IMG/VR virus record: IMGVR_UViG_3300019776_000698
Location: 1 to 23,722 of that record
Reading direction: 5' to 3' (one strand)
From: a virus
DNA: 23,722 nucleotides
Shown piece by piece: positions 3,131 to 22,384 of the stretch (the stretch's first letter is position 1; each line of letters starts with the position of its first letter). The translations under genes were made by a program, and so were the position numbers. Below the pieces are notes generated by a model that saw nothing but the letters and a program-made list of their open reading frames with translations, made no database searches and was not told where the DNA came from.

Positions 3131-3151
3131 CAAATATACTTAATCCTATAG

Positions 3152-3179
3152 TTGCTTTTGTTAAACTTTATACTATTAT
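3152..3179 (+). promoter_or_regulatory. Sigma70-like early promoter placing +1 at the start codon
   Basis: TTGCTT (3152-3157), a 16-bp spacer and TATTAT (3174-3179, 5 of 6 matches) lie in the 55-bp gap between divergent TerS and the 58-aa gene. Six bases separate the -10 from the ATG at 3186, so the expected transcription start is the A of ATG. The -35 is only a half match. Confidence 0.5.
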
Positions 3180-3185
3180 ATCAAA

Positions 3186-3362
3186 ATGGAAACAGTTATT
3201 AATACAATTCACGGAACATATATTGTGCCTGGTAATAAGCTTGATCAGTTAATACAATGGTTAGAACATAATGCAGTTAAACCTGCTACAACACCATTAC
3301 GAGAAGTTAAAATAGGGGAATATTCCCCAGAGTTTCAAGCCCGTCAATTAATCAATGAGTGA
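3186..3362 (+). CDS. Small unknown protein, 58 aa, first gene of early operon
   Basis: This short reading frame begins METVINTIHG and ends ARQLINE. It is probably real: it fills the space between a promoter and dut, overlaps the dut ATG by 8 bases (ATGAGTGA, a translational-coupling arrangement), and starts six bases after a -10 box. The protein is soluble, with a likely beta hairpin near residues 8-15 and an amphipathic helix at 18-30 (NKLDQLIQWLEHNA). I do not recognise a family and propose no function. Its neighbours suggest expression with early nucleotide and replication genes. Confidence 0.7.
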   Translation: METVINTIHGTYIVPGNKLDQLIQWLEHNAVKPATTPLREVKIGEYSPEFQARQLINE

Positions 3363-3837
3363 TACATTTTCATATACGATGGTAAGTTATGCAACTGCCT
3401 TGGGTGCAAAGTTTCTTAAAACTCATCCTGATGCCGTTCTACCTGAACGTAACCATAAAGATATTCATACAGGAGATTCTGGTTATGATGTAACGGCAGT
3501 TGAAGAAACTGTTATTCCTGCTAGAGGAGCTGCTACAGTACCGGTTGGTCTTAAATTAGCTTACCTTCCACCAAATGTTTGGATTAGAGTAGAGTCTCGT
3601 TCCGGTTTACAATTTAAATACGGCCTTCAGGCTTTTAATGGTATTATTGATAATCAATATAGAGGGGATTTAGGTATTCGAATTCTCAATCACTCTGATA
3701 ATGACTATACTGTTAAAAAAGGTGATAGGGTTGCTCAATTTGTTCTTTATCCTCTTGTTACTTTAGAGTCGTCATGGGCTGAAGAAATTCATGAGACCGA
3801 ACGAGGTGAAAAAGGGTTTGGCAGTTCCGGTGATTGA
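3355..3837 (+). CDS. dut: dUTP diphosphatase (dUTPase)
   Basis: The enzyme hydrolyses dUTP to dUMP and pyrophosphate, keeping uracil out of phage DNA and feeding dTMP synthesis. All five trimeric-dUTPase motifs are present in order in 160 aa: GDSGYDV (40-46), SRSGL (81-85), NGIIDNQYRGD (95-105, with the catalytic Asp), KGDRVAQFV (122-130) and the C-terminal RGEKGFGSSG (150-159). The start at 3355 overlaps the stop of the 58-aa gene by 8 bases; an in-frame ATG at 3379 is a reasonable alternative because the conserved part begins after it. The end of the gene carries the -35 box of the gp44 promoter. With nrdJ it forms the dNTP-supply part of the window. Confidence 0.95.
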   Translation: MSDTFSYTMVSYATALGAKFLKTHPDAVLPERNHKDIHTGDSGYDVTAVEETVIPARGAATVPVGLKLAYLPPNVWIRVESRSGLQFKYGLQAFNGIIDNQYRGDLGIRILNHSDNDYTVKKGDRVAQFVLYPLVTLESSWAEEIHETERGEKGFGSSGD

Positions 3838-3846
3838 TAGTATAAT
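3818..3846 (+). promoter_or_regulatory. Near-consensus sigma70 promoter for clamp-loader gene, leaderless geometry
   Basis: TTGGCA (3818-3823, 5 of 6), a 17-bp spacer and a perfect TATAAT (3841-3846) sit across the dut stop codon. Six bases (CTATTC) then lead to the ATG at 3853, so the expected +1 is the A of the start codon. There is no Shine-Dalgarno sequence. This is the strongest host-type promoter in the window. Confidence 0.75.
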
Positions 3847-3852
3847 CTATTC

Positions 3853-4758
3853 ATGTTTCAAAACTTATTTGTTGAGAAGTACAGACCTAAGACTTTAACT
3901 GATATTGTTCTTACTAGTGAAGAACGTCAGTACTTTGAGTCTTTAAAGTCCAAAGAAGAGATTCCAAACCTTCTCTTTGCAGGTAATCCTGGTACAGGTA
4001 AAACTACTCTCTCTAAGATTATCGCAACTGATATCTTAGACTGTCAATACCTTTATATTAATGCCTCAGATGAGAACGGTATTGATACTATTCGTTCTAA
4101 AGTTATCGGGTTTGCCTCTACAAAATCATTAGACGGTAAGTTAAAGATTGTGCTCTTTGACGAATGTGACGCTCTTACCCTCGACTCTCAGAAAGCTCTT
4201 CGCAACGTTATCGAAGAGTATTCTCACAATACGAGATTTATCTTTACCTGTAACTATCTCTTTAAGGTTATTCCTGCTCTGCAATCACGGTGTCAGATCT
4301 TTAATCTAACTCCTCCTCTCGATGGAGTATTGAACAGAGTGGTAGCTATACTTAAACATGAGGGAATCACCGTTCCTGACACCGAGAAACCTAAGCTCGT
4401 AGAGCTTGTCAGATCTGGTTATCCTGACTTACGGCGTATTATTAACGATATTCAAAAGTTCTCTTATACGGGAACTTTAACGATTAAGGACAACCAAGTT
4501 AAGGGCATTGCTAATAAAGTAGTAGACAAGATTAGAGGTAAAGTAACACCTCAAGAACTTCGTAAGTATGTTATTGAAAGAGAACAAGAATTCTCTGGCG
4601 ATTATCTTCAGCTTCTTAAAGAGATGTTCGAAGTAATGTTTGAGTCAGATATTAATGCTAATAACCTTCTTATAATCTCTGAAGGTATGTACAAGGATGC
4701 CATTGTAATTGATAAAGAAATTAACTGGTTTAGTACTTGCTTAAAACTTTACAATTAA
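3853..4758 (+). CDS. 44: Sliding-clamp loader AAA+ ATPase subunit, T4 gp44 type
   Basis: This AAA+ ATPase would form the clamp-loader motor that opens and loads the gp45 ring at primer-template junctions. Over 301 aa: the N-terminal VEKYRPKTL motif typical of RFC and gp44 proteins (8-15), Walker A GNPGTGKTT (44-52), Walker B VLFDECDA (100-107), sensor-1 FTCNY (131-135) and the SRC arginine-finger motif (145-147), followed by helical lid and collar regions. Length is close to T4 gp44 (319 aa). The small loader subunit gp62 is not visible in the window. The gene appears to have its own leaderless-type promoter inside the end of dut. Its TAA stop overlaps the stop of the convergent minus-strand gene by two bases. 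Confidence 0.93.
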   Translation: MFQNLFVEKYRPKTLTDIVLTSEERQYFESLKSKEEIPNLLFAGNPGTGKTTLSKIIATDILDCQYLYINASDENGIDTIRSKVIGFASTKSLDGKLKIVLFDECDALTLDSQKALRNVIEEYSHNTRFIFTCNYLFKVIPALQSRCQIFNLTPPLDGVLNRVVAILKHEGITVPDTEKPKLVELVRSGYPDLRRIINDIQKFSYTGTLTIKDNQVKGIANKVVDKIRGKVTPQELRKYVIEREQEFSGDYLQLLKEMFEVMFESDINANNLLIISEGMYKDAIVIDKEINWFSTCLKLYN

Positions 4759-8331: not shown

Positions 8332-8339
8332 TATTTATT
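8332..8339 (-). promoter_or_regulatory. Late promoter motif AATAAATA before gp48-like gene
   Basis: The minus strand reads AATAAATA, 7 of 8 to T4 late consensus, ending five bases before the ATG at 8326. It overlaps the stop of the tape-measure gene. It would serve the gp48-gp53-hub set. Confidence 0.55.
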
Positions 8340-11667: not shown

Positions 11668-11675
11668 TATTTATG
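11668..11675 (-). promoter_or_regulatory. Late promoter motif CATAAATA before tape measure
   Basis: The minus strand reads CATAAATA, 7 of 8 to the T4 late consensus, ending six bases before the ATG at 11661. It falls in the short gap after the second gp26-like gene. Confidence 0.55.
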
Positions 11676-15077: not shown

Positions 15078-15085
15078 TATTTATT
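15078..15085 (-). promoter_or_regulatory. Late promoter motif AATAAATA before tail tube
   Basis: The minus strand reads AATAAATA, 7 of 8 to T4 late consensus, ending seven bases before the ATG at 15070 and overlapping the stop of the sheath gene. Confidence 0.55.
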
Positions 15086-17373: not shown

Positions 17374-17381
17374 TATTTATA
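17374..17381 (-). promoter_or_regulatory. Perfect T4 late promoter TATAAATA before tail sheath
   Basis: The minus strand reads TATAAATA exactly, ending 13 bases before the sheath ATG at 17360. The spacer is all A and T. Immediately upstream is a short hairpin and an A-run. Confidence 0.75.
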
Positions 17382-19797: not shown

Positions 19798-19814
19798 AGA
19801 GTTATTTAACTCTG
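19797..19814. repeat. 18-bp palindrome over the TerL start and upstream stop
   Basis: CAGAGTTA (19797-19804) and TAACTCTG (19807-19814) are perfect inverted repeats around TT. The element covers the stop codon of the 126-aa gene and the first base of the TerL GTG codon. In RNA it could mask the TerL start, or it could be a protein-binding site. No U-run follows. Confidence 0.6.
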
Positions 19815-20193: not shown

Positions 20194-20532
20194 TTATTTA
20201 TTTGAATGACTAAATTTCTTATTATACCCCGGAGCTTTATTATTAATGTTATATTTGACTAAATGTTCAACAAGAACTTCAAACGATGAAGTAGAAATTT
20301 TTAAACGCCCTGGTATTCTTTGGTCGCCATCTGTTAATTCAAAATATGAATCACCATAAAAGGGTTCATTGACAAAACAGGTACAAAATACTGACGAAAC
20401 ACCCGGATCAATTACAATTGTCCAAGCACGAGGATCAGCGTCATTATACTCGGTAAAGAGTTTATGAGCATAGTAACCTGAATCTCTTAAACGCTTTAAA
20501 GTATAACCTAGTGTGGACAGTTTATTTGACAT
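20194..20532 (-). CDS. Hypothetical protein, 112 aa
   Basis: Starts MSNKLSTLGYTLKRLRDSGY, a basic helix, then a beta-rich centre (WTIVIDPGVSSVFCTCFV, SYFELTDGD, RLKISTSSFEVLVEHLVKY). It looks like a small compact alpha/beta protein with two cysteines close together (CTC). I recall similar small proteins near replication genes of marine T4-like phages but cannot name a function. It follows gp45 by 23 bases. A -10-like TATAAG sits seven bases before the ATG. Confidence 0.7.
   Translation of the reverse strand: MSNKLSTLGYTLKRLRDSGYYAHKLFTEYNDADPRAWTIVIDPGVSSVFCTCFVNEPFYGDSYFELTDGDQRIPGRLKISTSSFEVLVEHLVKYNINNKAPGYNKKFSHSNK
20195..20202 (-). promoter_or_regulatory. Late promoter motif AATAAATA at the head of the TerL unit
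   Basis: The minus strand reads AATAAATA, 7 of 8 to T4 late consensus, ending eight bases before the ATG at 20186. It overlaps the stop of the 112-aa gene and marks the switch from the replication block to the late block. Confidence 0.55.
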
Positions 20533-21718: not shown

Positions 21719-22384
21719 TTACGAAACCGCCCCTTTATTGTTTTGAGCAAATTCCACAAACTTGTAAAACTCAGCTCTTGAATTATCTTTTTCATCTAAG
21801 AAAGACCCGGACATTCTAGCAGTCCTCATAGTGCTATCATGTTTAATACCGCGGTTAGAACAACAGGTATGATTAGCTTCAATTAAGACTGCTACTCCTT
21901 TATTCTTCTCACAGACTGTATCAATATACTGATGAATTTGCATTGTAAGATTTTCCTGAACTTGAGGACGACGAGAAAACCAATCAACAATGCGATTAAG
22001 TTTTGAGAGACCAATAACCTTGCCGGTCTTTGATGGAATATATGCTACGTGAGCTACACCCATAAACGGTGCATGATGGTGAGAGCACATTGAAACAACT
22101 TTGATATTATTCTGACATACCATACCGTCATAACCATCAATATTATCAAATGCTGTTACTTTAGGTGGTTCAGTGTAACATCCCATTGCTAGGTCGGTAA
22201 CAAAAGCCTTAGCGACCCGGCGCGGTGTATCCGCACTATTAGGGTCATTACGCCAATCGAAACCGAGAGCATCTAAATATTGTTCGTATGCCTGAGCTCC
22301 CTTTGATATTAATTCTTCTATTTCTTCTGGTGTATGAATTATATTGTGATTAGCGTATTGGAGTTTCTTTTTACTTCTTAACAT
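21719..22384 (-). CDS. folE: GTP cyclohydrolase I (FolE)
   Basis: Catalyses GTP to 7,8-dihydroneopterin triphosphate plus formate, the first step of folate synthesis and of the 7-deazaguanine (queuosine) pathway. In 221 aa, the expected family length, zinc and catalytic residues are visible: Cys100 and His103 in MCSHHHAPF, and Cys174 in NHTCCSNRG (E. coli C110, H113, C181). DTPRRVAK (52-59) and the helix near 125-140 are conserved family features. It lies between gp32 and the clamp gene in one tight unit: three bases after the gp32 stop, one base before the next ATG. Marine T4-like phages often carry folE. Other queuosine genes are not in the window. Confidence 0.95.
   Translation of the reverse strand: MLRSKKKLQYANHNIIHTPEEIEELISKGAQAYEQYLDALGFDWRNDPNSADTPRRVAKAFVTDLAMGCYTEPPKVTAFDNIDGYDGMVCQNNIKVVSMCSHHHAPFMGVAHVAYIPSKTGKVIGLSKLNRIVDWFSRRPQVQENLTMQIHQYIDTVCEKNKGVAVLIEANHTCCSNRGIKHDSTMRTARMSGSFLDEKDNSRAEFYKFVEFAQNNKGAVS

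Follow-up and report, generated by a model that had tools for sequence, protein, structure and literature searches.

Phage T4 is the textbook system of leader- and Shine-Dalgarno (SD)-based phage translation. Phage mRNAs that start at AUG are known from the Thermus phages phiYS40 and P23-45 and from lambda cI, which represent other hosts and other phage lineages than the clade described here. In one type of bacterial leaderless gene, TANNNT lies about 12 bp before the start codon (Zheng 2011, PMC3160421). Leaderless genes whose −10 element abuts the start occur in Actinobacteria and Deinococcus-Thermus (PMC3160421, PMC12340547), those of Deinococcus-Thermus having been described as "−10 adjacent to ORF" (PMC12340547). 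A search of the literature found no paper describing leaderless mRNA in T4-like phages. Leaderless genes as such are already known; their use across a whole gene repertoire, early and late, in a clade of the T4 superfamily appears to be new.

The window analyzed here is the entire 23,722-nt (23.7 kb) IMG/VR fragment and derives from a deep T4-superfamily myovirus. It encodes an NrdJ-type ribonucleotide reductase, dUTPase, gp44, gp32, GTP cyclohydrolase, terL, and tail sheath, and the presence of gp17-, gp18-, gp32-, and gp44-like proteins places it in the T4 superfamily. The terL protein was at most about 36% identical to those of cultured phages, and in the terL tree the window and its relatives formed a long, deep branch of their own, separate from T4, phiM12, and the cyano- and pelagiphages. 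No near-identical phage DNA was present in the phage collection, and an Rfam search of the window gave no match. The Far-T4 lake phages resemble the clade in being uncultured, freshwater, and deep-branching T4-like, which is a likeness and not a placement; their description reported no promoters or leaders and did not detect the T4 transcription-regulation core genes (PMC4360716).

Two genes in the window have a sigma70-type promoter lying flush against the start codon. The first gene of the plus-strand cluster, a conserved 58-aa ORF (3186–3362, + strand), is preceded by −35 TTGCTT (3152–3157, +), a 16-nt spacer, and −10 TATTAT (3174–3179, +), with six nucleotides (ATCAAA, 3180–3185) between the −10 box and the ATG; this distance from motif to start codon is called the gap below. 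The gene for the gp44-like sliding-clamp loader (3853–4758, +) has −35 TTGGCA (3818–3823, +) within the dUTPase codons, a 17-nt spacer, and −10 TATAAT (3841–3846, +), again at gap 6 (CTATTC, 3847–3852). Both arrangements are exactly those of the original prediction, which had placed +1 on the A of each ATG, and its statement that neither gene has an SD sequence was confirmed in the window. The two starts are unambiguous because in-frame stops lie upstream (TAA at 3162–3164 and TAG at 3838–3840) with no ATG, GTG, or TTG in between. Like bacterial TANNNT leaderless genes, both place the hexamer at −12 to −7, lack an SD, and have a predicted +1 on the A; unlike those genes, which are found in cellular genomes, they belong to an AT-rich T4-superfamily phage clade with a clear −35 box and late promoters of the same layout. 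The two sites that had been called similar and weaker were also as described, with TATAAG 7 nt before the 112-aa gene and CATAAT 9 nt before gp32, and are candidate sites not assignable to a class. The dUTPase gene (3355–3837, +) shares 8 nt with the 58-aa gene, an overlap through which its translation is probably coupled to that gene.

The gp44 site matched the sigma70 consensus at 11/12 positions, with a TTGACA-like −35 at a spacing within 16–18 nt, and was the best promoter match in the first 20 kb, tied with two others. Promoter-like matches were no commoner in the window than in shuffles (83 vs. 85.9), so that function cannot be proved from the window alone; the proof comes from comparison with relatives. 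A scan of viral contigs for gp44 yielded 80 loci; the survey covered the 34 whose identity was at least about 65% and whose start was clear. A −10 box was present upstream of 27 of these, at a gap of exactly 6 in 24 (TATAAT or TATACT). The sequence of the six-nucleotide gap drifts (CTATTC, CAATAC, ACACAC, AGCTTC, CGCTTT, ACAACT, and others); its last base is C or T in 24/24, which matches the initiator expected before a +1 A. Conservation of the gp44 −35 says little by itself, since it lies in conserved dUTPase codons (GFGSSG). The deviating relatives had gaps of 1, 5, and 25 (one each), and seven lacked a −10 box. Two cases count as evidence against the flush layout: in G008 the gp44 TATAAT lies 25 nt from the ATG, and in L021–L027 gp44 adjoins the dUTPase gene without a −10 box, except for one at gap 1. 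Transcription of gp44 might also proceed from the promoter of the 58-aa gene, as part of a polycistronic RNA that has a leader.

The 58-aa protein (METIVNTI...IVP) is conserved in 40 contigs, with no Pfam and no PHROG match. A TTG-N15-19-TANNNT unit 6–9 nt from its ATG was kept in 25/31 distinct orthologous upstreams, compared with 2.1% of shuffles, and among the closest relatives the gap is exactly 6 with only two exceptions.

The −10-to-ATG distance was then plotted across 11 contigs, including ten longer relatives (48–218 kb), which together hold 1,013 ATG genes as called by a simple ORF caller favoring ATG in the relatives. Sigma70-type −10 hexamers peaked at gap 6 (40 observed vs. 4.7 expected from internal ATGs). 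At the 100 −10 boxes with gaps of 6–8, a TTGA box emerged at −35 spacing, though not selected for, and −35 matches of at least 4/6 numbered 49 vs. 15 in shuffles. At gap 6, the base before the ATG was a pyrimidine in 85%, in keeping with an initiator.

Late-type motifs in the window, all on the minus strand, have a comparable placement. ATAAATA precedes the 181-aa gene (2637–2643, gap 9, with a second copy at gap 2), the 331-aa gene (8332–8338, gap 5), the 1107-aa gene (11668–11674, gap 6), the 209-aa gene (15078–15084, gap 7), whose orthologues were compared, and the 126-aa gene (20195–20201, gap 8). At terL, which starts with GTG (19797), the motif is TAAATA (19803–19808) at a gap of 5, and the tail sheath gene has the full octamer TATAAATA (17374–17381) at a gap of 13. 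A variant, TAAGTA (3137–3142, −), stands 6 nt before the ATG (3130) of the 164-aa gene divergent from the 58-aa gene; the G004 orthologue of the 164-aa gene has ATAAATA at gap 7. The octamer is the same as that of T4 late promoters and is found here upstream of virion genes. In T4, TATAAATA spans −13 to −6 (PMC1524935), so a gap of 5 would put +1 on the A of the ATG. Among the 1,013 genes, NATAAATA occurred 195 times at gaps 5–14 vs. about 1 expected, with a sharp edge (3 at gap 4, 26 at gap 5) at the position expected for leaderless transcription. The base before the ATG was T in 89% at gap 5, which likewise suits an initiator; gaps of 8–14 predict leaders that are short, not zero. Homologues of gp55 were identified in G001, G003, G004, G005, and G007 (E 1e-10 to 6e-18), in a region that the window does not span, and are consistent with ATAAATA acting as a late promoter. 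When one random gene was drawn per family (~426 ATG-start families), 33% were of the late class, 10.5% of the sigma class, and 34% abutted or overlapped the previous gene; SD accounted for 1%, and 21% fitted none of the classes.

SD-like sequences, defined as pairing of −5 kcal/mol or lower, were near background in the clade (2–13% of genes vs. 1–6% in shuffles). The corresponding observed and shuffled values were 53 and 18% for T4, 54 and 20% for Mosig, 29–42 and 11–12% for HTVC008M, 22 and 11% for Syn9, and 21 and 10% for P-SSM2. The main exception to this scarcity of SD-like sequence is gp23, the major capsid gene. Its conserved leader (G002 37151–38599 = L089:17151–18599; L154–L231) contains ATACTCA, AGGTCGA(A/C), and AAAGGAG(A); across relatives, GGTCGA was found in 28/45 and A/T-AAGGA-G/A in 32/45, with AAGGA mostly 10–14 nt before the ATG. 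SD-like sequence is thus not forbidden in the clade, and the gp23 leader could be regulatory. A GGAGG at gap 8 in G004 was considered as an SD and rejected, since it encodes part of the C-terminus in a family of tandem genes.

Other T4-like phages differ from the clade to varying degrees. In the T4 control region ATAAATA lies 12–35 nt from the ATG, mostly 24–28, and SD is common, whereas in the clade the distance is 5–14 nt and SD is rare; in Syn9 the gaps are 15–39. The expectation that leaderless mRNA would be unusual for a T4-like phage therefore holds against T4, Syn9, P-SSM2, and the pelagiphage Mosig (gaps mostly 15–36 nt, SD enriched), yet the geometry is not unique to the clade, because the Pelagibacter phage HTVC008M has six late promoters at a gap of exactly 5. 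These ATAAATA motifs (L137: 6280, 7562, 16007, 18916, 19456, and 31132) precede annotated ATGs with no clear SD. HTVC008M is nonetheless mixed: only some of its genes have the gap-5 geometry, SD is enriched genome-wide, and two late motifs at gap 18 are both followed by SD-like sequence. It encodes a late sigma and bS21 and, having been cultured on SAR11, offers a direct test case for the same late geometry.

We consider it quite probable that the 58-aa/dUTPase operon and gp44 are transcribed from the flush sigma70-type promoters as leaderless mRNAs, within a clade-wide layout of flush promoters (gaps of 6–9 early and 5–14 late), coupling, and near absence of SD. With promoters flush against the start codon, +1 is expected at the A of the ATG or no more than about 3 nt away. 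The host RNA polymerase, carrying its principal sigma factor, would most likely start the 58-aa operon and gp44 at AUG, presumably early, and ribosomes would bind the 5'-terminal AUG of both mRNAs, with dUTPase translated by overlap coupling to the 58-aa gene. Later, gp55 would direct the polymerase to the ATAAATA sites placed likewise, giving the late genes, with their gaps of 5–14, predicted leaders of 0–9 nt. For most of the other genes, which adjoin or overlap the one before, translation would probably be by coupling. The original prediction of leaderless mRNA from these two promoters draws strong support from conserved spacing, an independent −35, and near-background SD; its restriction to early mRNA was too narrow, because the gp55-type late promoters have the same flush geometry, which makes this a general layout of the clade. 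The layout may, as originally suggested, bear on how translation begins in the host. A common aquatic relative of T4 would seemingly run its early and late programs alike on leaderless or near-leaderless mRNA, and leaderless translation of a whole lytic cycle becomes testable. More tentatively, and with somewhat less than even confidence, we suggest that the clade has nearly abandoned SD initiation, such that every promoter, of the host type or the gp55 type, would make a 5'-terminal-AUG mRNA, downstream genes would be coupled, and only gp23 would keep an SD-like leader; the phage may separate its own messages from those of the host by initiation mode, possibly aided by bS21 in some members.

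It is improbable, in our estimate, that the −10-like boxes represent internal or minor sites and that the main transcripts begin farther upstream with SD-independent leaders as in Bacteroidota. A precedent exists in Flavobacterium johnsoniae, where SD-less leadered initiation is the rule and the mean leader is 33 nt (PMC6847099), and a weaker site, CGGACA-17-TATAGT (TATAGT at 3147–3152), does lie upstream of the 58-aa gene. However, this gene is separated by just 55 bp from the divergent gene with which it forms a pair, and most close relatives have kept TTG...TATTAT but not TATAGT. The glycan-cluster epimerase of G001 is closest to Bacteroidota (61–65%), which favors this alternative; as a host clue it was judged weak, since glycan genes frequently undergo transfer and the promoters do not conform to the Bacteroidota type. 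The −35/−10 logo shows the canonical TTGA/TATAAT and differs from the Bacteroidota consensus TTTG/TANNTTTG (PMC6847099), which argues against such a host, and Rhodothermus phage RM378, a cultured deep T4 relative, showed neither motif pattern.

It is very unlikely that the motifs serve translation instead, as AT-rich signals of an A/U-rich, S1-binding, or Kozak-like kind. All these phages have AT-rich sequence before the ATG, but a TTGA box at the proper −35 spacing, the abrupt onset of ATAAATA at gap 5, a gp44 gap held at exactly 6 nt while its sequence drifts, and the gp55 homologues all fit promoters. Coincidence in an AT-rich genome, compatible with the lack of excess promoter-like matches in the window, is barely credible given the conservation across contigs and the position-specific enrichment.

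Further clues to the host were limited. No relative turned up when 85,000 genomes were scanned with gp44, and inspection of G004 gene content by eye revealed no host-diagnostic gene. Both G001 and G004 encode bS21, with weak matches only, from mixed phyla, when the G004 protein was compared to the PDB. In bS21-encoding Bacteroidota phages, bS21 has an aromatic residue at Tyr54 (PMC9723584); at this position the G001 and G004 proteins had no clear aromatic residue, as compared by eye without formal alignment. The phage bS21 genes (L082:4043–4273 and G004:190721–190936) have TATAAT upstream at gaps of 9 and 7, respectively.

Several minor features accompany these genomes. A conserved ATTCTTTGTCAAATTT lies immediately 5' of the ATG of the NrdJ gene (window 90) and matches neither promoter class. 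The GTP cyclohydrolase gene in the window (21719–22384), together with QueC/QueD/QueE-like ORFs in relatives L102, L109, and L111, suggests a 7-deazaguanine pathway, perhaps used for DNA modification. Tandem overlapping small genes in G004 (195315–199008; L110) encode proteins with an N-terminus like MSFKxFF.ES and a C-terminal (S/T)FGGLL, reminiscent of T4 internal head proteins.
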